NCBI GenBank assembly: GCA_014871385.1
Contig: CM026423.1
Coordinates: 17,721,690-17,785,689, forward strand
DNA length: 64,000 nucleotides
Direction of reading: 5' to 3'
Source of the DNA: Ceratodon purpureus
Lineage: Eukaryota; Streptophyta; Bryopsida; Pseudoditrichales; Ditrichaceae
The notes beneath the pieces are model-generated. The model was not told where the DNA came from. It was given only the letters and a program-made list of their open reading frames with translations, and made no database searches. The stretch's first letter is position 1. Each line of letters opens with the position of its first letter. This document shows, piece by piece, positions 5,439 to 60,603 of the stretch. A program made the translations under genes and the position numbers.

Positions 5439-5447
5439 TGGATTTAG
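5439..5447 (+). repeat. Left 9-bp target-site duplication of the MULE
   Basis: TGGATTTAG lies directly outside the left terminal inverted repeat. The identical 9 bp lies at 18439-18447 outside the right one. Nine-base duplications are the hallmark of Mutator-superfamily insertion. Confidence 0.9.
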
Positions 5448-5702
5448 GGGTCTCTCTATTTTGCCCCATCGAGCGTTGCAGCCGCCCCTCACGCGGGCAG
5501 GGGCAGCGCAACGCCCCCCGACCCTCCCCCTCCCCGAACCAGGCCGTCCCCGACCCTGGGCGAAGCCCCGCGCGCCCGTGGTGAGCCCCGCGCCCGGGCT
5601 CCCGCTCCCCGCCCGGTCTGTCCGTCACCCATTCTTCATCCCGGTCCCGTCACCCTCGTCGAGCCTCCACCCCCGCGCCCCGCGACGTCTCCCCCGTTGT
5701 GC
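5448..5702 (+). repeat. Left 255-bp terminal inverted repeat of the MULE
   Basis: It begins GGGTCTCTCTATTTTGCCCC and is very GC-rich. It is the mirror of 18184-18438 with one difference noticed (CACGCGGGC here, CACGGGGGC in the other). The long open frames across it on both strands appear in both TIRs only because the repeat is duplicated; they are not supported as genes. By analogy with MuDR the TIR may hold the promoter of the inward-reading gene. Confidence 0.92.
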
Positions 5703-6187
5703 CATCATTATTCTCGGCGTCTCTCCTGACGGCGGCTGCGCAATTTTGAACGTCGGGGCGACGCTGTGAGGCAGAGCCAGGGGCGAATTCATGAGTTTGT
5801 AGGGAATTTGGATCGGACATGGCATGGGAAGGTTGGGCGGGGTTGAGGATTGTCTAGCTTGTGTCATTTGTGCGGAAAGTTTTCATGAACCTGCTGTGTT
5901 GTAGTTGCTGGGATTATGCGATGCATGGGGGAGGTTGTAGTTCCTGGGATTATGCGATGCATGGGGAAGGGTGAGCGGTACTTAAGGCGCGAGCTTCATT
6001 CAGCATGAGATGACGGTTGCTGACTGAATCACTTCGGATCGGTGTGACTCCATTCTACCCCTGTCATGCATACTCATCGGATCGGGAGCACGATCCGGAC
6101 CTCGCAGACACTGTACAGATGCATGATGTCCAGTTCGGGGCGGACGCTTATGCGGTGGACTTGGGCGCGGTCGGTGAGGACAGCACC

Positions 6188-6190
6188 TAG
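6188..6190 (+). other. In-frame TAG upstream of the transposase start
   Basis: The transposase frame is open upstream of the Met at 6398 back to this TAG. Beyond the TAG it is open again to about 6016, with an in-frame ATG near 6119. The residues on either side form two imperfect tandem copies of EDSTWGFQEAG; in the first copy the Trp codon TGG has become TAG. Either the original protein started upstream and this copy is truncated at its N-terminus, or translation normally starts at 6398. Confidence 0.7.
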
Positions 6191-6397
6191 GGCTTCCAGG
6201 AGGCCGGGGAGGACAGCACCTGGGGCTTCCAGGAGGCCGGGGGCGATGCAGCAGAAGATGAAGGAGGGCGAGCCCGAAGGGAGGAGACTCCCAACATCGA
6301 TGTCGGCTGTCGACAAGGCAGATGGGCAGTCCACTCCGATGCAGCAGGGCCTCTTTCCGAGCGGGTTCAGCAGCCAGTCGGATCAGCAGGCTACGGA

Positions 6398-9300
6398 ATG
6401 GATGAGCAGTGCGACGAGGAGATGGAGGACGGGGAGGACAGGGTCAGTCCGGAAGAAGAGCGAGAACTGAGCGAAGGTGAAGACTCTCTCAGTTTTAGGA
6501 CACAGCCCGTCCTGGAACCAATTAGTGGTGATGAACCTGAAGTCGAGGACTTGGGCGTCCAGAGTGCTGTTCTGGACGAGAAGATCAAGAGGCCCTCCTG
6601 GCGGAGGGTGGCAGACAGGGTTAGAAGGTCTGTCCAGAACCCACCCCCCGGGCCATTCTGTAGGACAGATCTGCGGTGGGAGTCCAAGTGGAACCAGGGG
6701 AATGGGAAGCGAAGGGAGACGCAGAAGGTCACTATCCCATGGAATAGGTTGGAGGACTTCCTCGAGGGTGAGATGTCTGCCCGTCAACATCCCTGTACCT
6801 TTGTGGAGGAGTCCCGCCGATGCATGAAGAGGGATGCTAGGAAACAGATCAGGGCTGACTCGGCTGTCCAGGAGATAAGGTAATGCCTGGCCTGAAGTGC
6901 TTCCCTTCTTAGGACAGCTCCTTTCGTTTGCAATTTCTGTCTGCTACGATTTTCTGAGTCCCTCACTGCTGCTGTGCAACCTCGAACAGTAGGACAGGTT
7001 CAGCTCACTTTACATGCCCCTCTCTGTGTCCTGTGCAGCTATTGGTGTCAATATGGGCCGGTGGACTACAGTCGCCAATACAAAGCCGAAGTGCAAAAGG
7101 TCTTCTCTCACTGCCTCACCCAGAGAAAGAACTCCACTAATCAGAGGAAGGCCGTGAAGAAGGCTCAGAAGCTTGTAGAGAAGGCTGCAAAAGATGCTGA
7201 AAAGGCTGCAAAAGATGCTGAGAAGAAGGCCGCAAAAGAGGCTGGGAAGAAGGGTCGGCCTAAAAAGAAAGGTAAGACAGAGACTATCCCTGTTCCTGAC
7301 CTTAATGTTGAGGCGGTGGATGAGGACGCAGAAGAGCTTGCTCGCCTACAGGAAGCACAGGAGAAGCTGCTGCAGGCGCAGGCCTTGATCGAAGCAGCCT
7401 CAAAGCCAAAGAGAAAGACCCGGGTGAGCAAGGTCCAGGCCGGGATGTCAATCAAGCGCGGCTGCCAGTGCAATTTCGTTGCAAAACAGCTACAGTGCGA
7501 TGAAAAACTCTGTACTATTCAATTTCACTGCATGACCCATACTAACCGGGAAGGGAAGGAGTGTCATGGAGCACAGTTTGGAGGCCACAGAGCTGGCCTA
7601 TCAGGTCATTTGTCAGCAGCCACGAAGAAGTGGATAGCAGACACCTTGAGGTCAGGCAAGTCGCCTGCCCAGGTCATGGCCGAGCACAAGGCGGAAGTAA
7701 TGCGATGTGCGCAGAATAACCTGCCAGCCACGAGGGACACATTCATTATGCCGTCCGACGTATATAACATCGCTAACAAGCTTGCCAAAGAACTGTGGGA
7801 AAAGCATCCCTCCGATGCCATGAGTGTCCGTATGTGGACAGACGAGAATGCAGACTGTCACTATCACTACCGTGAGTATGGGACTGTACAGCTCAATGAG
7901 CCGCCGCCTCCTGAGGACGACCCATTCTGCCTGGCCATCCAAACAGACTGGCAACTGGAGATGATGGTCAGACATGGCCACAGGAGGGCTCTCTCTATGG
8001 ATGCGACTTTCTCCACCAACGCCCCCAAGGTTAGCCCGCCGGTCACCCTCCAAATCTTCTGTACACATGAAGCCCTGTTTGCTGTATATGAGTTCAATTG
8101 CCTGTCCTCCTGTCCGAGCCATCTCTGATATTGTTCTCCCTGTCCTCGGGTGCAGTATCCACTATATACGGTGATGGTGTTCGACGAATGGGAGCAGGGG
8201 ATACCAGTAGCCTTCACAATCCAGGGAAGGTCACGGGAACAGGACATCACACCGTGGCTTACGAAGCTGCGGGATCGTTGCATAGCTGTGAAGCCTGATT
8301 GGAGACCAAGCTCCTTCTTGGTTGACAACGACCAGGCTGAACTGAATGCAATCAGGTGAGGACACTGACTACTATATCTCAGGGGGAGTGTCTTAAATAT
8401 GATTAGGACACGCAGCAGTTTAGGGTTCATCACGTCCCTGAAACAGCCCGCTTTCATGTCACTTTGCAGGAAGGTCTGGCCTGAGGCCGATGCTGTTGAA
8501 GGGGGAACGAAGGACGACGTGAAGATTTTGCTGTGTCTGTGGCATACACGCAAGGCGTGGCTGGAGAATGCGACTCAGAAGATCAAGGCAAACTATCTTA
8601 GGGCAGAGATTCTGTCTGCCTGTGCTGACCTAATGTATGGAAACGGTATCCTCCAGGGAGATCTTGCTGTGAAGGCTGCGCAGGAGCGTTTCAACTTCCT
8701 GAAGGCTAAGTATCCACAAGCAAAGGCATTCTTCCAGTATTTTGAAGAAACATGGATTCCCAAGCTGGAAATGTGGGTCAAGGGTTTCCGCAACATCCCA
8801 CACTGCAACCAGGACACCAACGCAGCAGTTGAGAGTTACCACGCCAACCTCAAGGCCATTCTCAGGTATTCCAGGCAGAAGTTTGACGGCCGCCGTGTGG
8901 ACTGGTTAATCTACCATCTGGTCAGGGATGTACTAATTCACTACTGGTATGCTGTCCAGTGTAAGCTGTACGGGTTTATCAAGAACGGGAAGGCAGAGGG
9001 GATTGTGGCCAGTGCAGTCATAAGGGCTGCAGAGATCCCCGACGAGCATGTGTCTATCTGCCTGGACCAGGACGTGGCCTATGTTGCGTCTCAAACTAAC
9101 TTTCCAGCAATCTGGGTGGTGACCAGCCCAAATTCAGACTGGGCTCACTGCAACTGCCCATTGGGCATGCGAGGTAACATCTGCAAGCATGTGGTGAAGG
9201 TGTTTAGGATGATAAACACGGAGGTTCACCCTGGAGACATCATACGGTATGCTGGGACCTTGAGGGGTACGATTCAGAGTGGCTGCAGTACTGCTGGCCT

Positions 9301-9649
9301 GGACATGGGAGACGGGACAGGCGAAGCGGCAATCCAGGACATCAGAGGGGCTGTCCTAAAGTCAGACGATCCTGAGAAAACGTACATCCAGATGAGGGGG
9401 TTCCTGGGGGAAGCGGATACTCTAGCGCTGGAGAATGTGGGTCTCCGGGAGCATTTCCTGGCTATCCAGGCTGAGGCCACAGGAAAGATGGCTGCACTGA
9501 AAGCCAAATCCGAGGCGGGCTTGCTGCACCCTCTCTCGCAGCCGTCCTTCAAAGTGAATGCAGGGCCCAAGAATCTGCGGCGCTTCAAAGCATGCTCCGA
9601 GACTGGGACTAAGAAAAGGGCTGCCGGGCGGAGTAGGAAATGGGATTAG
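6398..9649 (+). CDS. MULE transposase (MURA-like, DDE + SWIM zinc finger), 4 exons
   Basis: The likely exons are 6398-6879, 7039-8029, 8156-8355 and 8470-9649. All introns are GT..AG and the phases join without a shift, giving about 950 residues. The N-terminal quarter is acidic and low in complexity, followed by a Lys/Ala-rich helical stretch encoded at about 7140-7430. The MULE catalytic core follows: first Asp in SMDATFST (8000), second in FLVDNDQAE (8324 or 8330), a LLCLWHTRKAW block after it, and the catalytic Glu in TNAAVESYHANLK (8831). A SWIM finger, CNCPLGMRGNICKH, lies at about 9149-9190. It should bind the element's TIRs and carry out cut-and-paste transposition in the nucleus. The whole core is open, so it may be functional. 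The start is uncertain because the frame extends upstream to a TAG at 6188. FAR1/FHY3-type domesticated relatives share this architecture, but the intact TIRs and duplication argue for a live element. Confidence 0.9.
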
Positions 9650-10082
9650 GACAGGGGAGTAATATGACAGAGGAGTACGAGGACAGGAGTTTATTAGGGG
9701 GGAAGAGTACTCTGTATAGGATAGACAGGGTACGCAGGTACTGTATGTATGTATACTTAAACGAGTATTGTTACCTCAGTTTTGTGAGTACAAGAAGGCT
9801 ATGGCATATGCCCAGCTTCTCTTTTCCCTGCCCAAAGAGGCTTCGGCTCCCACTCTAGTCCTTCTGTCATCTATGGTCGTCTTCGAAATTGTAGTGGGTC
9901 TGGAATTTTGGGCCACCCTTAAAATTCCGGAATCACTGTGCACAAGAGACACGGTTGCAGTACTTCGTACTACTATAGTCTAGATTCTGTTCTCAGTCCC
10001 GTGGTCACCGAATTCAACACTGCAGACCTGGAATTCAGAAAACCTTCACTCCACCAAATTTCAGTCTAGAAGGTTCAGCCAT

Positions 10083-10277
10083 GGTTGCCTGTCCTAAATA
10101 ATCCTACACAGGTTGACTAGAATTGGTTACCTGTCCTAAATAATCCTACACACAGGTTGACTATAATTGGTTACCTGTCTTAAATAATCCTACACACAGG
10201 TTAACTACAATTGGTTACCTGTCCTAAATAATCCTACACACTGTGGTTCACTGTAGTTGGTTACCTGTGCTAAATTA
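10083..10277. repeat. 44-bp tandem repeat, about 4 copies
   Basis: The units start GGTTACCTGTCCTAAATAAT and end with a variable GGTTgACTaTAATT segment. They lie about 430 bp past the transposase stop, inside the MULE. Three of the copies carry the octamer TGTCCTAA that is enriched across the element. Confidence 0.85.
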
Positions 10278-13018
10278 CTGTATAATCCATGCTTCATTAA
10301 TTTAATTGCCACTTGGTAACCCATCTCCATTTGCAAACGTAGCAACTTAGGGTACTGAATGAATATTTGATTTTGAAAGAATGTTGTATTAATGAGAAAA
10401 GTTTACATTGAGCATTCCAATTTTCTAAAAACATTATCAAATAGAAAACTAAATTTATTTGTTTCGAATTCACTAAAGAATGTGTAAAATTTCAATAAAA
10501 ATTTATTTCATAAATTCACAAAAAATTAAAATTCATGTAATAAAGCAATTGTAATTTGATATAAAGATAAATTCAATGGGATTTAAAGCTCAATGATAAA
10601 AATCAAGAGTTGAAAAGGTAGAGAAATCTCTAATAATGTTTTATAAATTATTATATTACAATTTCTGTTTTCTTGAATTTTTGAATTCATTATGGATGAA
10701 TGTAGAGAGTTTTGACATTTAGAAGGAAATTCAATTATTTTGTTCTTTTTACTTTGCAGTTCTCTGGCTTTGGTCATGTTATATTTATGTAGTATTGCAT
10801 GTTCTCGAGTGGTATGCTAAGAAGAGGAGGCGATTTAAGAAATAAAAATAAAATCATGGTTATACTGCGTGAGATAAACTCATACGAAGACCTCATGCTC
10901 TTGAAGGGGTCATTTAAAAAACCTTCTCTTCTTTAGGAACACATTTCACTTCCCGGTTTTCAATAAAAAAATTGTTGAGAGTCTGCGAATCATGAAACTG
11001 ATGAATCAAGCACCCTTCCGTTTATCATGACTTACAAGAATAATAGATTGCCTCTCCGGTTCATGTAGTCCACAACGCGATGGAGTACTGCACTGGTGTC
11101 TTTAGCGTGCAGGAAAATCGCAGCGGTAACTCCAAAGTTGTAATCAACGCCTAATCGATAGCTGGAGTTTGCGAAATCAAGTTTTCATATGTAAAGGCTT
11201 TTTACATGCAAATTCAGAAAATTCAAGTTCTCTCAAGAGTCCCATAAAAATTCAAAGGCTGCAACAACTTTAGAATGCGAATTTAAATTAACGCATACGT
11301 CTACAACGGCGGGAAGGACATCGAATAATTCAACAAAGTGGGGCCTGATTATTTCCTGCAACTTCTTCAGAAGACCTTCATCATGAACTGCCGTGAAGGA
11401 GCACTAAACAAAGTGAAGCCTGATTTTTTCCTGCAAAACCAGCAGAAGACCTTCATCATGAAGTGCCGTGAAGGGGCACTAAACAAAGTGAAGCCTGATT
11501 TTTTCCTGCAACTTCTTCAGAAGACCTTCATCATGAAGTGTCGTGAAGGGGCACTAAACAAAGTGAAGCCTGATTTTTTCCTACAACAACTTTACAATAG
11601 CTTCATCGGGAAGTACATGAAGAGGCAGTTAAGAATCTGAATAACACCCGAAATTAGTATTCTATTAATTCTGACGGAGACACCTCTTTTTTCAGCAATT
11701 AGATGTGGATTGATAAGTTGAACTGCGCACAAGTGGTTCCCTAATTTGACGCATCGACGCTCCTCAAATGTGTAGGAGTTCTTCTCTGTAGAGAAGCTCC
11801 ACAACTTATCCAAATCTTTCTGGACTCACAATTGAAGATGTCTATCACCTTCTTGTACATTCCTACTGTGGTGCATTCATACACTTGATATAAGCACTTC
11901 GTTCTTCAGAATTTTGCACCAGGTTCTGAATTGAAGTTAAATATTTTGCTTTCCCTGCCTTGTAGATCTTATTTATGTGTTTATGAACTTGACAAAGTTT
12001 ACAGCTCTCGATTCATACTTTTAATGTTCGGTTGCGTGAACATGTTTCTTGGCATGAACGTCCTCACCGCTTACTGAAACGAGGGACTGTCGTAGCCAGC
12101 ACCTTTGCCTTCGACGCCGCCTCCCCATTCCTCCTCCTTAGCTCTACTCGCTCCACTCTTCGCCCTCGCTCCTTCCCATCGCCCTCGCCGTCTTCTCGAT
12201 TTTTTTTTTTTTTGGTCAGCCTGGCCATGGGGAATGATGGAATTCTAGGACGACGCTGCCTCCTTGTTTTTTCAAGGAAATCCTCACCGCATTTAAGAAC
12301 TTATTGCTCAGTGAAATGGATCCAACATAACGCTAAGTACTGATTTTTTTCTCCAATTTTTTCATCCAAAGGTCACATAACCCTGAACTCTACAACCTTC
12401 TATGAAAGTGCCCCAAAGTTCTATGTTTTTGTTTCCGGAGTCTTCTTTTATTTTATTTTATTCAAGGATTACAAATTTTTATATTTTTTTCAAAAGTTTA
12501 GTACCTTCCTCCTCACATGCATTGCCTATAGCCTCATATCCTTTTACCTCACTGTATTAAATTCATAGCATTTACTTCTTGAAAGTTTAGAACATTTAGT
12601 TCCTCAACATTCTAAATTTTACCAAAAATAGTACCTCGTGACCCCTTTTGATCACCCCTTTCTATCCCCTGGTCCGCACGAACCGCACATGTTTTTTATT
12701 TTGTCTTTTCTTTGTTGATTACTCTTATTTTTTTTCCATTGTTGACTTCTTCTGGATTTTTTCTAAATATACATATTTTATTTCTAAATTCTTTGCATAT
12801 ATTCCCTGGACTTCATTTATTCCCTAAATTTTCCTCCCCCTATTCTAGTTTTTTTTTTATTAATGTTTTTTCTGATTCAATTCATTTCGATCGTTCTCGT
12901 CCTTGTCATTTTCTTCCTTTTTTTCCATTTTGGGCGTTTGATTCCTCCCCATTTGCCATTCCTTTTCATTAGCATCCTCAGTTTCATTTTCATCATTATT
13001 TTTTTTTTTTTTTGGGGG
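10278..13018. other. Non-coding interior of the MULE
   Basis: This is AT-rich sequence to about 12000, then pyrimidine-rich on the plus strand to 13018. Apart from the 75-bp repeat at 11332-11620, no supported gene or domain is seen. It separates the 3' ends of the two convergent genes. Confidence 0.6.
11332..11620 (+). repeat. 75-bp tandem repeat, nearly 4 copies
   Basis: The period is 75 bp, a multiple of three, so a 100-codon frame stays open across it. The repeated peptide contains KPDFFLQ and KTFIMKCREGAL. The open frame is most simply a by-product of the in-phase repeat and no homology is recognised. A small real protein cannot be excluded. Confidence 0.75.
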
Positions 13019-13252
13019 TTTTCCATTCTTCCCCATTTTCGTTTTTGTCCCTGTTTACTTAAATTTCAGTTTTCCATTCTCCCCCATTTTCATTTTCATC
13101 CCCATTGTTTTTAATTTCAGTTTTCCATTCTCCCCCATTTTCATTTTCATCCCCATTGTTTTTAATTTCAGTTTTCCATTCTTCCCCATTTTCATTTTCA
13201 TCCCCATTGTTTTTAATTTCAGTTTTCCATTCTTCCCCATTTTCATTTTCAT
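13019..13252. repeat. 51-bp tandem repeat, 4-5 copies
   Basis: The pyrimidine-rich unit of 51 bp includes CCCCATTTTCATTTTCATCC. The open frame on the minus strand (KMKMGKNGKLKLK periodicity) is explained by the period being divisible by three. Confidence 0.85.
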
Positions 13253-13920
13253 GTACAAGAAGTCTCTACGTAAAATTTTGAAACAACTTTATTTTCGAGT
13301 CGCTTCTTGCCGAATTTCGAGGAAATCCTCACCAGAATTGTATTTAGGACAGACATCTGCGGTCGTCCTTCTTTGTTTTTGCCCTTCCACGCTTTCTGTC
13401 CTAAATGTCCCCTGTCCTAAATGTCTCCTGTCCTAAATTTCCTCCTCTCTACCCGTTCATTTAATTTAAATGAAGTCGCACGTAAAGCCCTGCCAGTCCC
13501 GCGCTTAGGACAGAGGAATGAGGAGGACTTAGCATGGTAAAACCTTGATCTCGAGGGCTGCCGACCTCCGGCTCTGTCCTAATGGAGCAATGCTGAGATG
13601 GAGTTCCCTGATTTTTTTCCTACGGAGTTTCTGCACTTTTAATCAGTCTTCTCCGTGCTTCCAGTTAAGTATCAAACTCTGTACTAAATGTTAATACATT
13701 CACATGAGGAGGCAACATACGAATTTTGAAAGTGTATTTAAATTTCAGTACTCACATACTACTGGTCTCTGGCCTAACGTACTCCCAGCCCCGACCTCGC
13801 CAGCTGCCCAGCGTCCCCCCTAGAAACCGCCCATCCTAAACTGAACCAAACAAGATGTAACAAAACTGTCCCGGAATGACTAGTACAGAAGTAGCACCCT
13901 GCGAATTCTGCCTAAAAGTA
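13253..13920. other. MULE interior between tandem repeat and gene 2 stop
   Basis: This is probably the 3' flank of the minus-strand gene. It contains six TTAGGACA/TGTCCTAA octamers between about 13345 and 13580, including three in tandem at about 13395-13440. No coding frame is supported. Confidence 0.5.
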
Positions 13921-16900
13921 CTAAGGGGCAGCCAAGGAAACAACTGATTCGCATGATGGTACAACGGGCTCCACGTCTTCCAGCTGCTCGATTGAAGGGT
14001 TCTCAGGCTCCACGCCTCCCGAAGCCTCGCACGGAGGGTTTTCAGGATGCTTGCCTTCCACCTGCCCAGCATCCGGTGCGAGGTGCCAGTCCCCCCCTGC
14101 ATTGCGCTCCCCAGAGTTACTTCTCTCCATCCGGCTGAAAGCGCTGTCGCCCTCCAGACACGGCGAGATCAGCGGCATGTCGAATGTACACATCACCTGC
14201 GAGGGCAACGGTAGGTAATCCAAGTCATCCAAGTCCACTGAGATGTTCCAGTCGGCCAACTTCGCCTGCATGTGGTACATGCTGTTCTCGAGCATCTCCT
14301 TCGCTGCATCAAACAGTGACTCCCCCGCAGCCGGCCATTGACCCGTAGCCTCCAAAGACCCCCACCCATACTCGAGGTCGATGTTCTCGCGAAGGAGCAA
14401 GACTGTCCTAAAAGCCCCCGCGACCTTCTCTTGATCCACTCCTGCCTTCGTTACCCACATGTCCCGCAATATGTCCTCCTTCCCCTGATCCATCACGTCC
14501 ATGCATGCCCGAATGAAGGTGGCGCGCCTCCACTGCTGGTAGCTCTCCACCTGCTCACCCTTGTCGTCCCCGACATCCAGGACCTCTCTGAAGACTTCCC
14601 AACTCTCTCCATGAATATCCATCGTGGGGAAATAAATTTTACCCACTCGTATGAGTTCCTCCATAGCGAGCATGACCTGCCTCGATCTCTTCATGAGAGT
14701 GTCCTCCGTGAGCCCAAGCACCGGACACAGCATGGGCACGCGAGCCCCTGTCTCGCTCCGACTGAAGAGTTTCAATGCCCTCGCAAAATGAGGCGGCTCC
14801 TTCTTCTCCCCGGCCTGGCGGTTCTCCCGCTCCATCCATTTGATGAGACCCTGGAACTCCTCCTCGAAGTGCTCACAGGGCCTGCAGAGGCAGGATGGCA
14901 AAGGCAGGAGGATCATGTGACTGAACAGGGGCGACCACCCCCATTCCCGACCCTCCGCCGCAATACTCAGGTCTCGGTCGAATCTCGCCATCTCCTCAGC
15001 CACAAACGCAGCCCGGTTCTTCACCAACACTTTCATCGCCTCCACCGACTCCTCGTGCTCCTTCACCCGCGTTGCATAGCTGAGTACGTCGTCGTGATAC
15101 AAGTAGAAATCTTGGATTTCCTTCTCGATGGCTGCCTCGCATTTGGACGTAAACGCCTCTTTGCACCTGTCCAGGAGCTTCAGGGACTGGATTGGCAGCG
15201 CATCCTGCATTGAATAACCGGGGGGCCGCCACGATTAATCTTCGCCCACAAGGGCTGCTCGGAGAATGCATGGAAAGCTTACATTGAATTCAGCAATGCC
15301 GAGGGAAACTTACCGTCAAGTCTGGATTGAATTGCAGCGCCCCCCATGCATGGGCTACCATCCCAGGCAGTTGGCCCACCTCCTGCAGCTTCCGCAGCAT
15401 CTCCACCGGGCTGTGAAGGTCCTTCATGCAGTCCAGCGGGAGAATTGTACCTACCTGCTTCTGCAAGCAGTACAAGCCCGGCGGATGCCCGGGCTTCCTG
15501 GGGGCTGCCTTCACCTGAATATCTGGGTACAGCGTTCGCGCCCTCTCCCTCGCTTCCTCTTGTATCTGCAATCGCCGGCTCTGTCTTCCCCCCTTGGGTT
15601 GCACCTGCTCCTTCCCCTTTGGCTGCCCTGCCTCCTTCCCCGTCGAAGCCTCTGCCCCCTTCTCCTTCGCACCATCCTGGCCCTTCCCCTCCAAGTCTTC
15701 TGTGTTCTTCCCCGACGCCTGCGCTCCCCCGCTCCCTCCTGGCTTCCCATCCCCCTTCGACCCCGATGCCGGCTCGCGCTCCGCTGCTGGACCTGCATTC
15801 CCCACATTCCGCCTGCCTCCCTTCACCGACGGGACCCACTCCTCCGAGGTGGTCTTCTGCTCCGAACTTGGGGATCCCGTCCGCGGCCGCCTCTCGGTCG
15901 ACTTTGTTGGAGTCGTTCCCGCCTGCTGCGTCGCGGCCCGTGTCCTTCCCCCGACCCCCGGCGCAGGCGTCCCATGATTCTTTGGCGTCCCTGCAGGGCT
16001 TCTCCCCCCGACCCCCGTGCTTCCTCCGCGGTCACCCTTACTCCCTCTCCTCCCGGAAGCACTGGATGGCCCTGCTCCGCCCTTCGGCCCACTGCACTCA
16101 CCACGGCGGCCCCCTCCCTCCTTACTCCCTTGCGCTCGACTGGGCCGGTGCCTCTTGGGCGACCCCGCCTTGATCCAGTCGTTGCGCTTCTCACGCAGCA
16201 GGTCCGCGACAGATGGCGGGTCTTCCTCCCTTGCTCGCTTCCCTTGCGTCGGCGCTTGCTGGCTCCCCCCCCTCCTATCTCCCCCCGTCTCCCTCTCTGG
16301 ACTGGAGATTTCGACCACCTCCACACCTGCGCGTACACCCTGCCCCTCCTCCGAGCTCGTATTATCTTCCCCCGAATCGGTGCTTTCCCCATGTGTCTCC
16401 AAGTCGTCCCCGTCCGTGTCTGGTGGCAGGCTTTTTTTTTCCGAGCATCTGCCACGGTAGCTTGATGTTATACTTCCGAAACACAGCCCGGGACTCCTTA
16501 TTTCCATTCACCCCCATAGCAGGATAAATCTTCAGAGGGCCCCATACATTGTACTCGTAACCCTCGCACATTTCCATCTGCCAATGCCATCCCAGGTTTG
16601 CTTTATCCACCATGTCTAGGTCGCAGTACTTGCAGTAGAATGGGATCTTCGTCCTGGCCTTCCCGACTGCCTCCGGTGCCGGCTTTGTCCTTCGCCACAA
16701 CAGGTTAACCTCCACCATCAGCCAGTCATATTCTGACATGGTGAAGGCGTCCCTATTCGGAGCGTATCGCACCCATGTGCTGCAGCAGACGATGACCCGC
16801 TCCGGGCCGAATTTTCCTTCCACTTGGAGCTGCAAAACCAGAGCCCCAATGAGTGAGAACTCCAACTAGAGTAGAAAAAGGTATTCAAGCAGAATGACAA

Positions 16901-17160
16901 TAAAACAGAATTCATGTTTAGGACAGCATGCACATATGAGGGGAGAGGTTGTAGTCGCTTACCCCCGGGACAACTCCTGGATCCATCTTGGCGATCTTGG
17001 ACTGCCATTCCTTCGACAACGTCCGAACGTCCAGCTCTGTCGCCCTCAGCCTCAGCACATCGCAGGCGTCCTGGCGGGAGAGTCGAGACAGGTCCGGAGT
17101 GTTCGGATCATGGATCTGGGCAGCGAAGGGCACCATCGTCAGGGCCCGGAGCATGGACAT
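13921..17160 (-). CDS. MULE second gene: about 1,000-aa C2HC-finger protein of unknown function, 3 exons
   Basis: The gene is read from the right TIR toward the transposase gene. Likely exons are 17160-16963, 16829-15314 and 15204-13921, with GT..AG introns of 133 and 109 bp that keep phase. Exon 1 gives 66 residues. Exon 2 starts with a compact domain holding a CX2CX12HX5C motif (YCKYC ... HWQMEMC, about residues 131-153). It then has roughly 300 residues of highly charged Gly/Lys/Glu/Ser-rich linker. Exon 3 (427 residues) is globular and mostly helical-looking, with an acidic tail. Exon 2 is 505 codons plus one base: the frame changes at an A9 run (16432-16440), so this copy is either broken there, mis-sequenced, or uses slippage. 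The position matches mudrB of maize MuDR, but I recognise no family. A DNA-binding or transposition accessory role is inference. Confidence 0.7.
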
Positions 17161-18183
17161 TGCGAGGGCAAACAGAAATTAAACGGCAGAGGGGGAAGGT
17201 GGGGCGAGAAGAGCCAAGCTGAACCTAGGTGGGGATAGAAAGCGAAGGTGAACAGGAACTCGAAAAAGAGGAACATGAACAGCGTAAGGGAAGAGGCGGA
17301 GCCGAGACGCGATGGGACTGAAGAGGAGGTACTGTCGGAGGTTTCCCATGCCCAATTGGATCGTCGAAGCAACCCTAAACCCCGAACACAAGGTCCCCGG
17401 AAGATGGAAAGAAGAGGAGACCAACCTCGAATACGACCCTAAACCCTAATACAATGGTAGGACACAGCGAGACGAGGACAGGAAATCGAGAAGAACATGA
17501 AGACAGGAAGACATTAGGACAACAAAACTTCGCGAGTACAAGACAACATAAAACTTCAAAACAAAGGGCAAAGCTCAAACGGGAAGAGAGGCACGATGCT
17601 TAGTACTGACCAGCGCCTGTAGAGGTCCCATGGCAGTAGTGTCACTTGATTTGACGCTTCCGACACCTCCTGCCTACGTCGCGTGTCCACACGCACGAAG
17701 ACGCCCTGCACTGCCGAAGCTCGCTGCCCACCTGCAGTCCGAGATGCAATCGCCTTCCTCACCGTCACAATGGCACCGGTGTCCAAGGACACAGAACGCG
17801 TCCCCCCCTCCTAGCCAGCACCCTCCCGAAGTCTAAAACGTACGAGGAAACATGGGCCCCGGGATCGCCCACCTGGCCTCCAGAACTCCAGTTGGTCGAC
17901 AGCCTCCGAGGGGTTTACGAGTCTTCAATCGCATCCTCAAACTCGCAGTTGACCAACCCTGGACGCTCGAAGACAGCCTGCCCCTCTATCCCGGAGAAGG
18001 AATGCTCATGGCCAGCGGCACAAAACCCTGACCACGATATCACACAATGCAGAAACATCCGAAACCCCGTCACCTCTGCTAATGCACACCCTAAACGCCA
18101 TAGCCATTGTGAGTAAACCCTACCTTAGAATTCAAAACCTGCCTGTCCTAAACTCAGGGGCAAAACGTCGAATCATGCTGAAT
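17161..18183 (-). other. Leader region of MULE gene 2
   Basis: This lies between the start codon of the second gene and the right TIR and presumably includes its 5' leader. Open frames exist on the minus strand, for example 17792-17556 ending near a GGTCAGT donor-like site, but no splice partner keeps a sensible frame, so none is called as an exon. Telomere-like CCTAAACCCTAA occurs near 17440. Confidence 0.4.
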
Positions 18184-18438
18184 GCACAACGGGGGAGACG
18201 TCGCGGGGCGCGGGGGTGGAGGCTCGACGAGGGTGACGGGACCGGGATGAAGAATGGGTGACGGACAGACCGGGCGGGGAGCGGGAGCCCGGGCGCGGGG
18301 CTCACCACGGGCGCGCGGGGCTTCGCCCAGGGTCGGGGACGGCCTGGTTCGGGGAGGGGGAGGGTCGGGGGGCGTTGCGCTGCCCCTGCCCCCGTGAGGG
18401 GCGGCTGCAACGCTCGATGGGGCAAAATAGAGAGACCC
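18184..18438 (-). repeat. Right 255-bp terminal inverted repeat of the MULE
   Basis: This is the mirror copy of 5448-5702. It is followed directly by the 9-bp duplication TGGATTTAG at 18439-18447. Confidence 0.92.
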
Positions 18439-18615
18439 TGGATTTAGGCTTGTAAATGGACAACTTAGTGTGGCGGAATGGTTTTAATTGCAATCCAAGA
18501 AGGACGTGGTTACATACATAAGTGCTTGTCTTTGTGACAAACCATGGTGGTTTTAGTGTTGCAACAAGGGTGGAGTTAGAGTGGACATTGGAGATTATTG
18601 AGACATGGTTATTAG

Positions 18616-19749
18616 AGTGCACGTACCTTTGGAATTCCTTATACCTCTTTGAGAGACCATCTCTATGGCAGAGTGAGGGGAAGGAAGAGGGGAACAAATA
18701 CAGTGTTAAGTCAAGAGGATGAGGAGAAGTTATTGGACTATTGCTTTAAGATGCAAGATCTAGGACATCGATTGAGTTCAGGGCAGTTGAGAATAAAAGT
18801 GGCAATGGCAACACAAACAAGAGAAACACCATGGAGTCACAATGGGATCCCTGGAAAGTCATGGCTTAGAAATTTTAAACATAGACATCCAGATCTAGTT
18901 TCTAGGAAGAGTCAGCCCTTAGAGATGGCAAGGGCTAGGGGATTATGTCCTACAACTGTGGCAACCCTTTATTCTAACCTACATGAGCTTTACAGCACAA
19001 ACAACTACCCATCCTCTCACATCTAGAACTCTGATGAGAGTGGTGTATAGGCAGGGAGATCTGGAGGGGCGACAGTGTTAGCAAAATGTGGTAGCAAGTC
19101 TGTTTATACTATAGAGCGAGACCAACGTGGGCATCTCTCTGTCCTCTCATGTATCAATGCTGCAGGGGGGAAGATCCCTAACTTCTACATCTTGAAGACG
19201 ACTTATTTTCTAAAAGACTACATTCAGAACTATGAACGAGATGCTCTCATGGCCATGCAACCTAATGCATGGATGACTAAGTGGGTGTTTAAATCATGGA
19301 TCTCACATTTCATCAACATTTTGAAGAAAACAAGAGGAATTGACGAGACTAACAAACACTTGCTAATTTTAGACGGATATAATTTACATGTCACCTTGGA
19401 AGTATTTACAGTTGCCATGAATTCCGGTTTAGATATCATCTCCTTCCCTAGCCATACATCCCATGCACTACAGCCCTTGGATGTCTCCTATTTTAAACCT
19501 TTTAAGACTGCATTTAAACAAATTAGAGACTGCAGTCTGCAGGTCTTTAACAAACAAGGGCAAGAAGGTAGAAAAAAAGACCTTTGTGAATGGACATCTC
19601 GAGCCTTAGAGAAATCCCTAACTGCAAAGAACATCAAGTTAGAGTTTCAAAAAATAGGGATTTGGCTACTAAATGACCAAGCATGCAATGAAAAAATGAA
19701 TCCTCGTCTAGGTTTTGAAGAGGGGCAGGAGGGCTTTAAATTTGCTTAA
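18616..19749 (+). pseudogene. Pogo/Tigger-type (CENP-B-like) transposase pseudogene
   Basis: One reading frame runs from 18616 to 19749 but has TAG stops at 19024 and 19048. The N-terminal part matches a psq helix-turn-helix end (GIPYTSLRDHLYGR) followed by a CENP-B-type helix-turn-helix region (QEDEEKLLDYCFKM ... WLRNFKHRHP). The DDE_1 endonuclease then has its acidic residues in NSDESG, LLILDGYNLHV and SFPSHTSHALQPLDVSYFKP. The stops are consistent with a Trp codon and a Gln codon having mutated to TAG; no frameshift is needed. The 5' end of the first helix is lost upstream of 18616. The gene starts only about 170 bp right of the MULE, which may have landed in the 5' part of this element. 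It is dead as a protein-coding gene unless stops are read through. Confidence 0.85.
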
Positions 19750-38162: not shown

Positions 38163-39960
38163 GTTTTAGACCTTTTGCAAAAATTGCACAAAAGTGATGG
38201 AAATATGTAATTGAATTCAAATTTTTTTTTCGTAATGTAAAATCTCAATATATTCATTTCCAACTCAAAAAGTTTTGTGTACTTTGTACACTTTAAAGTT
38301 ATAGAATAAACGCTTTCAATCCAAGAAAAGTGAATGCAATCATTTCAAAAAGTGCCTAAAAAAGAATCAAAACGATTTTGAAACCACTTTTGATGGGGAG
38401 GTAGCCTTTATATGTTCTCTAAGGTAATCTAAAATGGTCAATATATGTACTCACTAACTAATTTAAGATCCAAAAGTACCAAAAGGATGTTTTTTAAGAC
38501 AGTTACTTCTGCGGTGTTTTTTGTGAACTTCTTGTGGGATATTTTTCACCAGAGATTCTTTTTTAATACTCTAACCCCTTGAATTGGATTCTCATAAAAG
38601 TCTAACTTCCAAAACTCTTTAGTAATCCCAAAAATTGCTTCAATCATTGCATTACCAACCCAAAAGCTACAACATATGGTACTTCACTAAGGGTCATCAT
38701 ATTAGGCCTACGCCCAACAAGATCTTGGAACCACAACTCCATTGATCTTATGTCAAATAACATGAGTGTTCTCATGATAAGGAACTTCTCTGATCACATC
38801 CACTGGAAGTATGCAATGAAAAACATCACTATTAAATAAGATAGCATAGAATTAAGTTGGAGATAAGTACTCCATGAATATCCAAAAAATATTCCATCCC
38901 AAGCATATGTTGTTTGCATTTTGTATTCTCTTTGTTCAAACTACATGTGCACTTGAGGTCACACCTTCACAAAATTGAATATTGTGATGTTGTTTCAAGT
39001 GACACGACGTATGTGTGACACATCCACATGGTCCCAAAATTGAAAGGAGAAATGGGATTAGAGCGTGCTCATCAAACCCTGGTTTTAGTGCAAGCAGTGC
39101 AGAGACTCAAGAGAGGCGCAACCCAAGCCAAATGAGCCAATGGGGAGGAACCATTACCCCCAAGGTATGTCCAACTCTTCACAAACTTGCGTCCATTGAA
39201 ACAGAGCCTCGCAGACGAATATGTGTTGAGCAGAAGAACACAAATCATCAATGTGAGCCTGTACACCGTCCAAACCATAGACTCTCCATGGGGTTGATGT
39301 GCGGAATGTCCACCCATGTTAGTAATTTTTGAAAAACTGGAAACTTGTTCATACAATGTCCAAATATTGCATGCTAAAGTGTGTTGGAGTTGCCGTTCAA
39401 TTGCCCACAAGGTGCTGTCAAACTAAATCCAATCTAATAATAGAAAGAAGATTGTGTAAGGGCCCAGAATAGATGCACATACGATTAGAGCTGAATCATG
39501 GTAGAGACAGGCTTGGGACCCAAAGGGTTCATTTAAGAGCTGATGAGCAGTGCCATCTGATACATCTCTCAAAGGTTGAGAATGGATCCTGATCCTGATG
39601 ATCACCGGGACTCCTTTCCGGGCAGGACCCCTCTTCCTGGCCGTCCAGGTTTCAGCAAAGTGGGGTGCGGATATTAGGGGTGGGATGATGAGTTGATCAC
39701 AAAGCAACCATAGCAATGTGGGGGCGCAATTACAGTAAGCGTGAAAATGCCACATGAAAATTGGTAACTGGTGCCATGATTCGCTCAAACCTAGTTCCCT
39801 CAGAAAGGCCGGCCTGCCAAGTGCAGGCTCCACAGGCTCGGGCAAGTCTGCCAACATAGTTGACCATTTGGTGGTCGATCAACTCCTACAACTTATTTTA
39901 CCCATTCAGAGTTACCTAAGGGTGTACTGTTACACTGTTCAGGGGAATTCCCATCTTGAC

Positions 39961-40291
39961 CCCTCGCTCTAAACCTCGCCCACGTCTTAATGACGAGGCG
40001 GGCCCTCCCCCTCCTCCTCCCCTTTCTCCTTTCCTCCCTGATCTATTTTTAGGGGCCCTGCGGCCCTTTTTTAGTAATTTTTTTATTTTTAATGAAACCG
40101 GGGACCCCGAATTAGCCTAGGGGGACCCACTAGATTAATTTTAGTTAGTTTATACATTTTTTTAATTTTTTTAATTTTTTAATTTTTTTTTCATCAACAT
40201 GCAAAATAAAGGGGGCTTTTTGCCCCCTCCAATGACAGCCCTGGTTGGGGGGCCCTCGTCATTAAGACGAGGGCGAGGTTTATCGCAAGGG
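39961..40291. mobile_element. MULE-type MITE, 331 bp, intact
   Basis: The ends are CCCTCGCTCTAAACCTCGCC and, in reverse complement, CCCTTGCGATAAACCTCGCC; the paired region continues for about 44 bp. It is flanked by the perfect 9-bp duplication CATCTTGAC (39952-39960, 40292-40300). The mirror arm at about 49723-49735 has the empty site with one CATCTTGAC. A split older copy is at 25775-28580. Confidence 0.9.
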
Positions 40292-40480
40292 CATCTTGAC
40301 ACCCTGCAACTTTCCTCCCCAACCCACCCACAGAGGGTCCTCTCTGGGGCCCAACCGCTTATTGGAAACCCAGGAGTGTTGAGAACACTGTTGAGATATG
40401 ACCCAACACGCATTTTAACTGTAGGTGGCGCCGCTGGCAACACATGTTCAACCTCAACTGGGGCAACACAGCCACTGTTA

Positions 40481-40854
40481 AGGTAGTGGTCCCAGAAACC
40501 GTCCGAATTTCAGGTTTGCTCATTTGGAATAGTGGTGGAATTTTTTGATAATTTTTGGATGAAGTGCAAAGCTAGTGCAAAGCCATCCCAAAAAAAAAAT
40601 CATTTTTTGAGTAAGTCTACAATTTCCTATGAATTTTTGAATGTTCAGCCCTAGGTGCTCCACTAACCGTCCCTAGAGTCATGGTTAATATGACCACTTG
40701 GATTCTGAGAATAGGACGTTTCTGCACCAATCACAAGCACTCAATTTCTGCAGCCATAGACAGAATTAGAATGATTTTGCACAGTTTCAGGAACAGCCTA
40801 TGTCAAGCCTATGGGACGGTTTTTGGGCCGGGACGGTTTTTGGGCGCACTACCT
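40481..40854. mobile_element. TA-flanked MITE, 374 bp (left arm)
   Basis: The TIRs AGGTAGTGGTCCCAGAAACC and, in reverse complement, AGGTAGTGCGCCCAAAAACC (then GTCC in both) are flanked by TA on each side. The mirror copy in the right arm is 49167-49540, also 374 bp, duplicated with the arm. No coding capacity. Confidence 0.8.
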
Positions 40855-41212
40855 TATGTCTGGCTCACTGGCCCCACTGTTTCCAAATTGTTGGGATCCT
40901 TAAATGGGCATGCAGTCACCCTGGAGCATGGAGGCTGGGCCTTCAAGAGCAGTTCTTAGCATCTTGTTTGCATTTTTCTTTTTTTTCTTTTTGACGCAAT
41001 AGGAATTCATTGCAGGAAATTAGATTACATCTTGCTTGCATTTTGACTCTTCTGCATGCAGTGCCAGGGCTGTCAGCGGGGTGGGCATAATGGATGTGCC
41101 AATGCTTGCCTGGGAAGTGTAACCCACAGTGGTATTCATTCTTTGTTTCCTTCATGATATTGAGGATGCCTGGAAGACGTGTATAAGTTCAATTGGGAAT
41201 CCATCTCGATAC

Positions 41213-42321
41213 GAGGCTGTCTTTTCGGAGTGCGTGGCTTAGGGTGCGTGGGTCCATGTGTAGGCCTTATCAGCCGGAATTTAGACCACCTAGTTACTGC
41301 ATTTAACAGATTTGCAGTGACGGAAACTGCGTCAGAGATGAAAATTTGATCCCAACTGCCACAGTAAAGCTAGAACCATAGAACTCACTGCTTTTTTATT
41401 TTTATTTTTTATTTTTTATATACTGAATAATTTAATAAAACTATTTAATGATCAATTTTATAATGAAAATATTTACAAATTTACGTTTAGAAATTTAAAT
41501 ATTACATTCGTGATTTTCCAAAAATAAAAAATTAATTTGATTGATTGGGTCAAGTGATTACTTAATGATAAATGATTTTTTGTAAATGGCTTTTTGCATC
41601 CTTATTCTTTGATTTTGATCATTCTGAGTTTTACACATTTTTAATATTATTTGGATGATAAAATAGGGGCTATAAAACCCAAAATTCAATGAGATCAACC
41701 CTAGCTATCCCGCTATCGTTGTTTTGAGTGAACCCTAAAATTACTTAACGGGCAACAGGTCCTACCGGACCCGTTGCCTTATTCAAACCCTTCTCGCTCC
41801 GCTCGATGGGTTTGAAAGGCTTTATATTTTTGCATCCTAATTTTTTGATTTTGATAAGTTTGAGATTTACATATTTTTAACATTATTTGCATGATAAAAT
41901 AAGGGCTATAAAACCCAAAATTCAATGAAATTAACCCTAGCTATCCCGCTATCGTTGTTTTGAGTGAACCCTAAAATTACTTAACGGGCAACGGGTCCTA
42001 CCGGACCCGTTGCTCTTATTCAAAGCCTTCTCGCTCCGCTCCATGGGTTTGAAAAGCCTAGTATTGCTTAAATATTTCTTATGTGAAATATATTTTTTAT
42101 TTATAAAATTTAATTTAATTATTTTATTTATTTATTTTCCTGAATTTTCCCTCAAAGGAACGGTTACAGTCACAATTTGGAACTGTATATTTCATTGAAG
42201 CCAGCATGAATTTTCGTTTTCATCCCCTTCTCCCACATGACCAGTGACTTCTCAGATTTTGATCCTGTCAGTGGACAGGGCTATGTGCACTCGGAGTGAC
42301 GCACTCCGAAACGCTGTCCTC
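41213..42321 (+). mobile_element. MULE-like non-autonomous element, 1,109 bp (tandem copy 1)
   Basis: The ends are GAGGCTGTCTTTTCGGAGTG and, in reverse complement, GAGGACAGCGTTTCGGAGTG. The outer duplication TCTCGATAC lies at 41204-41212 and, after copy 2, at 43437-43445. Inside is a tandem duplication of about 215 bp (roughly 41610-41825 and 41828-42045). Each half ends in GCAACGGGTCC/GGACCCGTTGC palindromes and a CTTCTCGCTCCGCTC stretch. No transposase frame. Confidence 0.8.
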
Positions 42322-42327
42322 TCTCGA

Positions 42328-43436
42328 GAGGCTGTCTTTTCGGAGTGCGTGGCTTAGGGTGCGTGGGTCCATGTGTAGGCCTTATCAGCCGGAATTTAGA
42401 CCACCTAGTTACTGCATTTAACAGATTTGCAGTGACGGAAACTGCGTCAGAGATGAAAATTTGATCCCAACTGCCACAGTAAAGCTAGAACCATAGAACT
42501 CACTGCTTTTTTATTTTTATTTTTTATTTTTTATATACTGAATAATTTAATAAAACTATTTAATGATCAATTTTATAATGAAAATATTTACAAATTTACG
42601 TTTAGAAATTTAAATATTACATTCGTGATTTTCCAAAAATAAAAAATTAATTTGATTGATTGGGTCAAGTGATTACTTAATGATAAATGATTTTTTGTAA
42701 ATGGCTTTTTGCATCCTTATTCTTTGATTTTGATCATTCTGAGTTTTACACATTTTTAATATTATTTGGATGATAAAATAGGGGCTATAAAACCCAAAAT
42801 TCAATGAGATCAACCCTAGCTATCCCGCTATCGTTGTTTTGAGTGAACCCTAAAATTACTTAACGGGCAACAGGTCCTACCGGACCCGTTGCCTTATTCA
42901 AACCCTTCTCGCTCCGCTCGATGGGTTTGAAAGGCTTTATATTTTTGCATCCTAATTTTTTGATTTTGATAAGTTTGAGATTTACATATTTTTAACATTA
43001 TTTGCATGATAAAATAAGGGCTATAAAACCCAAAATTCAATGAAATTAACCCTAGCTATCCCGCTATCGTTGTTTTGAGTGAACCCTAAAATTACTTAAC
43101 GGGCAACGGGTCCTACCGGACCCGTTGCTCTTATTCAAAGCCTTCTCGCTCCGCTCCATGGGTTTGAAAAGCCTAGTATTGCTTAAATATTTCTTATGTG
43201 AAATATATTTTTTATTTATAAAATTTAATTTAATTATTTTATTTATTTATTTTCCTGAATTTTCCCTCAAAGGAACGGTTACAGTCACAATTTGGAACTG
43301 TATATTTCATTGAAGCCAGCATGAATTTTCGTTTTCATCCCCTTCTCCCACATGACCAGTGACTTCTCAGATTTTGATCCTGTCAGTGGACAGGGCTATG
43401 TGCACTCGGAGTGACGCACTCCGAAACGCTGTCCTC
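42328..43436 (+). mobile_element. MULE-like non-autonomous element, 1,109 bp (tandem copy 2)
   Basis: It appears identical to 41213-42321 by eye and by its translated frames. Only TCTCGA, six of the nine duplication bases, separates the copies. It ends at the second outer TCTCGATAC. The right arm of the inverted repeat has just one copy (47700-48808). Confidence 0.85.
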
Positions 43437-43739
43437 TCTCGATACCATCTACTTTTTGAGAAATATTATGTGTGTACAGTATGTTTACATAGCAACTGAT
43501 TGGTAGTCTGTAGTTGACTATGCAAATTGTGATTTTTGTGTTATATGGAAGGGTTTGTGATTTCCAGCTTTGGCCATATGTTAATGTGTAGGGCTGATTT
43601 TTTGCAAAGTTTTAGCCAGTCCACGTCCAAAAACGTTGAGTTGAAAGGGAAAAAATAATTGGAACCTGACCATGGAAAGGTTGAAGAAAAAAACAACATG
43701 TCCCAAAACCGGTTGGAAATTGAAAATGCTCGTCCCACA

Positions 43740-47365
<3,626 letters not shown>

Positions 47366-47699
47366 TTTCTGGGACAAGCATTTCCAATTTCAAACCCGTT
47401 TTGCGACATGTTGTTTTTTTCTTCAACCTTTCATGGACGGGTTGATTTGAAATTACCAGATTTCGGACAGGTTCCAATTATTTTTTCCCTTTCAACTCAA
47501 CGTTTTTGGACGTGGACTGGCTAAAACTTTGCAAAAAATCAGCCCTACACATTAACATATGGCCAAAGCTGGAAATCACAAACCCTTCCATATAACACAA
47601 AAATCACAATTTGCATAGTCAACTACAGACTACCAATCAGTTGCTATGTAAACATACTGTACACACATAATATTTCTCAAAAAGTAGATGGTATCGAGA

Positions 47700-48808: not shown

Positions 48809-49166
48809 GTATCGAGATGGATTCCCAATTGAACTTATACACGTCTTCCAGGCATCCTCAATATCATGAAGGAAACAAAGAATGAATACCACTGTGGGTT
48901 ACACTTCCCAGGCAAGCATTGGCACATCCATTATGCCCACCCCGCTGACAGCCCTGGCACTGCATGCAGAAGAGTCAAAATGCAAGCAAGATGTAATCTA
49001 ATTTCCTGCAATGAATTCCTATTGCGTCAAAAAGAAAAAAAAGAAAAATGCAAACAAGATGCTAAGAACTGCTCTTGAAGGCCCAGCCTCCATGCTCCAG
49101 GGTGACTGCATGCCCATTTAAGGATCCCAACAATTTGGAAACAGTGGGGCCAGTGAGCCAGACATA

Positions 49167-49540
49167 AGGTAGTGCGCCCAAAAACCGTCCCGGCCCAAAA
49201 ACCGTCCCATAGGCTTGACATAGGCTGTTCCTGAAACTGTGCAAAATCATTCTAATTCTGTCTATGGCTGCAGAAATTGAGTGCTTGTGATTGGTGCAGA
49301 AACGTCCTATTCTCAGAATCCAAGTGGTCATATTAACCATGACTCTAGGGACGGTTAGTGGAGCACCTAGGGCTGAACATTCAAAAATTCATAGGAAATT
49401 GTAGACTTACTCAAAAAATGATTTTTTTTTTGGGATGGCTTTGCACTAGCTTTGCACTTCATCCAAAAATTATCAAAAAATTCCACCACTATTCCAAATG
49501 AGCAAACCTGAAATTCGGACGGTTTCTGGGACCACTACCT
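49167..49540. mobile_element. TA-flanked MITE, 374 bp (right arm)
   Basis: Mirror copy of 40481-40854 with TA at both flanks and the AGGTAGTG ends. Confidence 0.8.
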
Positions 49541-60548: not shown

Positions 60549-60603
60549 TCAGCGTAGAACCATAGCTCGGAGTGCCCACACTGCCAGTAATTGAGCCATA
60601 GTG

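Follow-up and report, generated by a model that had tools for sequence, protein, structure and literature searches.

The DNA analyzed here (the window, 64,000 bp of the moss Ceratodon purpureus, G000:C3:17721690-17785689 in a 362.5-Mb assembly of 151 contigs) contains, at positions 5448-18438, a 12,991-bp transposable element that is almost certainly a Mutator-like element (MULE), a genuine and fairly young one built on the plan of maize MuDR. In addition to a transposase gene (gene 1), the element carries a gene (gene 2) whose product is a putative reader of a 9-bp word, TTAGGACAG, that is repeated within the element and is replaced by different words in related families. The limits of the element and the models of the two genes, which are predictions from DNA alone obtained by comparing splice sites and reading frames over 11 copies, are as follows (TSD, target-site duplication; TIR, terminal inverted repeat).

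5439..5447, unstranded: left TSD, TGGATTTAG, an exact match to 18439-18447
5448..5707, plus strand: left TIR, 99% complementary to 18179-18438 over 260 nt and paired elsewhere in the genome
6119..6879, plus strand: gene 1 exon 1, from the alignment of 11 copies
6880..7038, plus strand: gene 1 intron 1, with word sites at 6910 and 6990
7039..8029, plus strand: gene 1 exon 2, from splice sites and frame
8156..8355, plus strand: gene 1 exon 3, from splice sites and frame
8356..8469, plus strand: gene 1 intron 3, with a word site at 8404
8470..9649, plus strand: gene 1 exon 4, with a SWIM-like CxCx(n)CxH motif and the stop codon
13921..15204, minus strand: gene 2 exon 3, encoding a conserved C-terminal region with no known relatives, and the stop codon (13921-13923)
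15314..16829, minus strand: gene 2 exon 2, zinc-finger domain (residues 67-198) followed by a low-complexity variable region
16830..16962, minus strand: gene 2 intron 1, with a word site at 16919
16963..17160, minus strand: gene 2 exon 1, residues 1-66; splice sites in 11 copies
18179..18438, minus strand: right TIR, 99% complementary to 5448-5707
18439..18447, unstranded: right TSD, TGGATTTAG, an exact match to 5439-5447

The outermost 255 bp of the TIR arms differ at a single base (99.6% identity), the 9-bp duplication is exact on both flanks, and the two spliced genes, gene 1 on the plus strand (6119-9649, four exons) and gene 2 on the minus strand (17160-13921, three exons), begin near the long TIRs and converge, all in agreement with an earlier note that had read these features and a MuDR-like plan from the sequence of this stretch. 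The gene 1 protein of the open copy C7_10.97 (1032 codons) contains the MULE transposase domain PF10551 (E-value 1e-10; 42.3 bits, with a Pfam cut-off of 27.6) and the ZSWIM1-3 RNaseH-like domain (34.2 bits, cut-off 27.2, E-value 2.8e-8); the SWIM domain PF04434 scores 15.6 bits and falls short of its cut-off (19.6). In MuDR, two genes likewise converge from the TIRs, over a length of about 5 kb. The moss element shares with MuDR the MULE transposase, the long TIRs, the 9-bp TSD and the gene pair converging from the TIRs, but is about 2.6 times longer, its gene 2 product of about 1000 amino acids contains a C2H2-type finger, and it carries dispersed, family-specific word arrays. The open reading frames (ORFs) of MuDR, in the part of the source cited here, are mudrA and mudrB (PMC6446971).

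A search of the genome with the left TIR yields 191 candidates, and the best 40 of these, which were scored, include at least 13 pairs in inverted orientation at a spacing of 12-13.1 kb, that of the window among them, and no short nonautonomous pairs. Ten further pairs, taken whole, are 12.1-12.9 kb long and have TSDs within the 8-11 bp range of MULEs, namely an exact 9-bp duplication in nine, as in the window copy, and a 10-bp one, GGTGTGGCCC, in the tenth. The earlier note had proposed such a count of TIR copies with 9-bp duplications and had regarded TIRs unpaired elsewhere, or a false assembly join, as the observations that would speak against the element; because at least 13 inverted pairs recur at similar spacing, the element is neither a chance arrangement nor a false join. 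The copies closest to that of the window, C7_10.97 and C2_6.62, differ from it at 1.27% and 1.23% of the aligned bases, respectively, and from each other at 0.38%, so that, together with the near-identity of the TIR arms, the proposed youth of the element stands in the form of "fairly young". In C3_7.64, C6_28.25 and C6_54.79, the first 5 kb, including gene 1, are 96-99% identical to the window copy and the remainder 93-96%; in C3_7.64 and C6_54.79, the two copies for which it was calculated, synonymous divergence from C7_10.97 is greater for gene 2 than for gene 1. This uneven identity along the element suggests that element lineages have recombined downstream of gene 1. Such mosaic copies are seen among the loci L025-L030 when these are compared with positions 5448-18438 of the window.

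The description of the window copy as near-intact holds for its TIRs, its TSD and the presence of both genes; it does not hold for the reading frames. In exon 1 of gene 1, a tandem duplication of 33 bp (array 6172-6242) includes a TAG in frame; the duplication is private to this copy and present in none of the ten others, and exon 2 of gene 2 is shifted by one extra homopolymer base (A9, with A8 in six other copies), which may be an assembly error. Because both genes are interrupted as assembled, mobility of this copy by its own means, which the earlier note had considered possible, is unsupported, and the copy probably needs help to move. Its gene 2 also carries the substitutions R149W, next to the finger histidine, where all other aligned members have R, and G87R, at a position occupied by G in its ten family members. 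Both genes are open as modelled in 4 of the 10 other copies (C7_10.97, C2_6.62, C3_7.64 and the more distant C6_25.38); these four are joined by C11_9.12 as the 5 of 11 copies in which gene 1 lacks internal stops, and by C5_19.39 as the 5 of 11 in which gene 2 lacks them.

Gene 2 encodes 998 codons in C7_10.97. The whole protein hits no Pfam family at E-values up to 1 and has no match among 7985 scored candidates drawn from about 5.8 billion proteins, although other mosses may hold one; to this extent, the earlier proposal that the partner protein is new stands. In the moss genome itself, a search with the first 198 residues (150 of 421 candidates scored) gives 183 matches, which represent at least 141 distinct gene-2 places at identities down to 46%. 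Comparison of C7_10.97 with the diverged copies C2_10.78, C11_9.12 and C5_19.39 gives a ratio of nonsynonymous to synonymous divergence (dN/dS) of 0.11-0.13 for gene 1 and, for gene 2, 0.05-0.08 in the N-terminal domain and 0.16-0.17 in the last exon; by these ratios, both genes are under purifying selection. In some close pairs with few changes, the ratio for the gene 2 N-terminal domain is high (1.36 for C6_25.38 and C11_9.12, 0.66 for C5_19.39 and C6_100.5), which tells against such selection. An ordinary MULE with a degenerate and functionless gene 2 would accord with the frameshift in the window copy and with the interruption of the gene in 6 of the 11 modelled copies; the selection on gene 2 between families, with dN/dS well below 1 in the diverged pairs, and the abundance of gene-2 places, many with long open frames, make this explanation highly improbable. 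In alignments between families, which leave out the low-complexity middle of gene 2, the window copy and the loci L041, L042, L044 and L047 are 50-55% identical in the C-terminal region of gene 2, 56-66% in its N-terminal domain and 75-79% in the transposase, so that gene 2, as far as these alignments go, evolves faster than the transposase.

The N-terminal domain contains the ligands C-x2-C-x12-H-x5-C, invariant in 14 of 14 aligned members and accompanied by a hydrophobic core, which corresponds to a C2H2-type (CCHC) finger; serine replaces the first cysteine in L061, one of 22 loci. A search of PDB with a profile of the 14 members identifies PRDM9 as the best match, with an E-value of 3.6e-9; this value combines several fingers of the same chain, and no single stretch is significant by itself. 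By name, 21 of the 23 listed chains are classical zinc-finger proteins; of the remaining two, one is a GTPase and the other a LIM domain. Five of the 14 N-terminal domains score as Pfam zf-C2H2 (best E-value 4.4e-4); that of C7_10.97, the first member, does not. The C-terminal region gives no match in PDB, either as a single sequence or as a profile. A single-sequence AlphaFold model of the finger exon of the window copy has a mean pLDDT of 33 and was not used.

The word, as TTAGGACAG or CTGTCCTAA, occurs 15 times in the 12.46 kb between the TIRs, where 300 second-order Markov simulations give a mean of 0.13 and a maximum of 2; the remaining 51 kb of the window contain 2 TTAGGACAG words, and each of the 11 copies contains 9-18. 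The sites of the core, TAGGACA, and the tandem repeats of the element are located as follows.

6496..18150, unstranded: TAGGACA array, 21 core sites, ten of them at 6496, 6661, 6910, 6990, 8404, 9352, 9647, 10090, 10132 and 10220 and the other eleven at 13345, 13397, 13413, 13429, 13506, 13575, 14404, 16919, 17458, 17515 and 18144
10082..10275, unstranded: 44-bp tandem repeat, 4.4 copies, unit with CTGTCCTAA; sites 10090, 10132 and 10220
11332-11587: 75-bp tandem repeat between the genes, without the word
13018-13252: 51-bp tandem repeat between the genes, without the word
13396..13442, unstranded: 16-bp tandem repeat of CTGTCCTAAATGTCCC, 2.9 copies, one word per unit; sites 13397, 13413 and 13429

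Five of the core sites are coding (in 6130 bp), four intronic (in 641 bp) and 12 lie in other noncoding DNA (6220 bp), so that, compared with coding DNA, introns have a strongly increased density and other noncoding DNA about double. This distribution bears on the possibility that the words are internal binding sites at which the transposase, or a complex of transposase and gene 2 protein, acts in transposition, given that some plant elements have repeated subterminal transposase sites. The site at 18144 is only 35 bp inside of the right TIR, paired TTAGG words are confined to the neighborhood of these elements (see below), and the transposase diverges along with the families, with 8 of 381 columns sorting the word class in a small set. 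Transposase sites would, however, be expected at the ends, and the TIRs contain no TAGGACA, the first site on the left is 1 kb from the end, and the density peaks in introns; furthermore, the TIR, the expected target of the transposase, is 76% identical over 172-183 bp to those of L041 and L045, which have a different word, and gene 2 has diverged more than the transposase. This explanation is therefore unlikely, though it is the most probable of the alternatives considered here.

The number of core sites per copy is nearly constant (20-27 in the 11 copies), and the sites occupy 42 alignment columns, only 7 of which are filled in all 11 copies; judging from this alignment, sites turn over at a steady number while the neighboring noncoding DNA changes. 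Five diverged copies keep 8-11 of the 16 noncoding core sites, compared with 5-22% of 1793 control 7-mers located within 200 bp of the sites; C5_19.39, e.g., keeps 10 of 16 against 5.4% of the controls. If gene 2 were an integration accessory of the mudrB type or of the type of mutB from the element Mutyl, as the two-gene plan common to MuDR and Mutyl would allow, the words might be a by-product of tandem duplication. Only 6 of the 21 sites are within the two word-bearing tandem arrays, and noncoding sites are kept about 3-12 times more often than neighboring 7-mers, depending on the copy, at a steady number despite turnover, so that this possibility appears rather improbable.

Sister families are represented by eight loci (L041-L048) of 8-10 kb, each surrounding a diverged homolog of gene 2, and their words share the core GGAC with those of the window family. 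L042 contains TTAGGACAG eight times, with none of the eight in coding matches; coding matches comprise conserved segments only, so that these and the following counts are lower bounds for coding sites. Four loci lack TTAGGACAG and instead contain YCCGGACAG (17 sites in L041, 2 of them coding; 12 in L045, none coding; 8 in L046, 2 coding; 7 in L047), which occurs 0-1 times in each of the 11 copies of the window family; L041 includes about eight GGACA cores in a 10-bp tandem array. The remaining three contain CCAGGACR (17 in L043, 8 in L044, 2 of these coding, and 8 in L048). Across the 362 Mb of the genome, two TTAGG words within 30 bp are found 20 times, with 1 match for the backward control and none for the one-letter-changed pair CTGTCCTTA, and all 20 have a listed gene-2 place at a distance of 13 kb or less, a neighborhood that makes up at most about 1% of the genome. 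Paired CCGG words give 53 matches (backward control 10), 38 of them no farther than 13 kb from a listed gene-2 place.

These counts also bear on a reading of the words as ordinary cis-regulatory sites (for promoter, splicing or 3' end function) of a host factor, which would suit the sites that lie within introns, those upstream of gene 2 and the one at the stop codon of gene 1. Related families in the same genome, however, have different words in similar numbers, a difference that a host factor common to all of them would not call for, and every paired TTAGG word is near a gene-2 place; this reading is accordingly improbable, slightly more so than that of an integration accessory. Several observations tell against a clean system of family-specific noncoding words. 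Four of the 7 sites of L047 are coding, as are 7 of 17 in L043 and 5 of 8 in L048; 15 of the 53 paired CCGG words are more than 13 kb from any listed gene-2 place; of these 15, four are at distances of 14-26 kb, and two recurring sequences account for seven. The CCAGG pair, CTGTCCTGG, has 13 matches compared with 70 for the control (5 of the 13 are, by eye, at most 13 kb from such a listed place), and the window family itself holds 3-6 CCAGGACR where about 1 is expected, which makes this class less clean. Thus, on the word counts, the TTAGG and CCGG classes are firm and the CCAGG class is provisional. With these reservations, it is highly probable that the word system is selected and family-specific, and the most likely explanation, from the sequences compared, is that an element-encoded factor keeps family-specific words over introns, leaders and intergenic space. 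One 26-bp sequence with two CCGG words occurs at C6:9775326, C6:99491727, C11:16611873 and C13:3130831, in each case more than 200 kb from listed gene-2 places, and is perhaps another word-carrying repeat.

The gene 2 protein is the candidate for this factor, and residue 144, at position +3 of the finger helix, covaries with the word class. Fourteen further loci of 2 kb were added for the finger and the words upstream of it, six of which (L053, L055, L056, L060, L061 and L062) were left out. The residue is N in loci with TTAGG (the window family, L042, L049 and L050), T in those with CCGG (L041, L045, L046, L047, L051, L052, L054 and L057; in L051, TTCGG with 4 sites exceeds TCCGG with 2) and "H or E" in those with CCAGG (H in L044, E in L043, L048 and L059); in L058, it is Y, and TTAGG, TTCGG and TTTGG are about equally frequent (5, 5 and 4). 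Of the 131 columns compared in 19 dereplicated sequences, that of residue 144 alone separates the word classes with no exceptions. In a tree built without this residue, N/TTAGG appears in two lineages and the T/CCGG clade is sister to the window family, so that, on this topology, N/TTAGG would be either ancestral or evolved twice.

Nevertheless, the covariation is confounded by descent, and a series of further points weakens the case for this residue. The split of N/TTAGG over two lineages leaves few independent co-changes; when L058 is omitted, three columns qualify (137, 144 and 156), all in or beside the finger; and in a set of 10 sequences, perfectly sorting columns make up about 2-3% of both proteins (6 of 185 and 12 of 423 in gene 2, 8 of 381 in the transposase). 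Word classes were assigned manually, those of L049, L050 and L059 from between one and three sites each (one in L049), the omission of six short loci reduces the sample, and the first eight loci are no independent test because residue +3 was noticed there before the later ones were added. A single finger is rarely enough for a 9-bp site, and the residue changes do not fit the textbook finger code throughout. Assignment of the contacted base by the rules of that code was dropped because no single register suits all word classes. On balance, these comparisons somewhat favor gene 2 as the putative reader of the word.

With regard to known systems, the closest parallel is found in the VANDAL elements of Arabidopsis, which, unlike the moss element, are not known to have long TIRs. 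The latter has two genes rather than three, a zinc finger in place of DUF1985/DUF287, neither of which is detected in the 998-residue gene 2 protein at E-values up to 1, and different words; by domains, gene 2 is not VANC and would be an independent solution. Like VANDAL21 (Hiun), the moss element is a MULE in which a much more conserved transposase is accompanied by a variable additional protein, and both have a noncoding-enriched 9-bp word, partly in tandem, that differs between families, in the moss firmly so for TTAGG and CCGG and weakly for CCAGG. According to the portions of PMC5735166 and PMC10398659 used here, the 9-bp YAGTATTAY is dense in the intronic, intergenic and terminal noncoding DNA of VANDAL21, often in tandem, and draws VANC21, which removes DNA methylation from its own family; the words of a related VANDAL family are AGTTGTCC/AGTTGTAC. 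In the same portions of PMC5735166, the VANDAL transposase (VANA) is much more conserved than VANC, and the part of VANC that sets specificity is left to future studies.

In the most likely scheme, the transposase would move the element through its 255-bp TIRs, and the gene 2 protein would be the sequence-specific DNA-binding partner of the element. Gene 2 protein would read TTAGGACAG, with its core TAGGACA, through the finger, residue 144 being probably one specificity residue, and, by analogy with VANC, would coat the introns, intergenic DNA and gene starts of its own family and counteract silencing by DNA methylation, so that each family would help only its own copies. Taken as a whole, i.e., as a MULE with a sequence-specific and, by analogy, anti-silencing DNA-binding partner independent of VANC, this scheme has about even chances of being correct; that anti-silencing is the purpose of the word system is a slightly weaker proposition. 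More tentative still is the suggestion, drawn from the same parallel, that the moss lineage evolved a VANC-independent recognition of self and other, with finger protein and words co-diverging, each family protecting its own copies and the switch at helix position +3.

A potential footprint of methylation is compatible with the anti-silencing scheme. Among private C>T changes, events that are not fully independent of each other, 151 of 212 fall at CG/CHG in four disabled copies (that of the window, C6_28.25, C6_54.79 and C6_100.5) and 52 of 117 in four open copies, the baseline being 40% of cytosines; ten copies were covered, C2_10.78 being left out. Two points count against a link to silencing: the grouping was made post hoc, and inclusion of C11_9.12 (8 of 24) and C5_19.39 (25 of 46) among the disabled copies lowers their share to 184 of 282 (Fisher p 1.4e-4). 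The footprint fits silencing of dead copies and could also reflect age alone.

The described case of sequence-specific anti-silencing by a DNA transposon is that of the Arabidopsis VANDALs (PMC5735166 and PMC10398659, in the parts cited above). If the scheme outlined here is correct, the moss element would represent convergent evolution of counter-defense, with the same word-array logic and an unrelated protein, and word choice could be tested at a single residue of the finger. The presence in one genome of several families that differ in their words would amount to a natural experiment on the co-evolution of the pair. What is new here is the word array that diverges together with its likely zinc-finger reader. 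Two-ORF MULEs with a comparable extra gene are Mutyl of Yarrowia, with the DNA-binding ORF mutB, and Spectre of aphids, with a C2H2 finger outside of the transposase ORF; these are fungal and animal elements, likened by description only, with TIRs of 22 and 74 bp and TSDs of 9-10 and 8 bp, respectively, and the portion of PMC6446971 from which these data are taken makes no mention of family-specific word arrays. A MULE of similar kind from Ceratodon or another moss was not found among the open-access papers listed by the literature search.

The gene-2 places are unevenly distributed over the genome: 68 of the 141 listed (at least 141 in all) are on contig C6, which at 110.5 Mb makes up 30.5% of the assembly (binomial p 8e-6, ignoring the kinship of the copies). 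The sex chromosomes of C. purpureus exceed 100 Mb and represent about 30% of the genome, as stated in the parts of PMC8000587 and PMC13120521 cited here, and C6 is probably one of them; if so, the excess would link the system to sex-chromosome evolution.

Outside of the element, the window contains, immediately to its right, a 232-codon stop-to-stop frame (19051-19746, plus strand) that resembles a piece of another transposase, by impression only. Further along, a large inverted repeat (38163-43671 and 47465-51518) consists of three arm pairs of 1.3-2.0 kb that are 100% complementary and, on one side, a direct duplication of 1.1 kb, and is either a very young palindrome or a feature of the assembly. 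The region 56345-63405 contains several long open frames, most of them on the plus strand, possibly another transposon, and includes an array of 30-bp repeats at 62570-62929.

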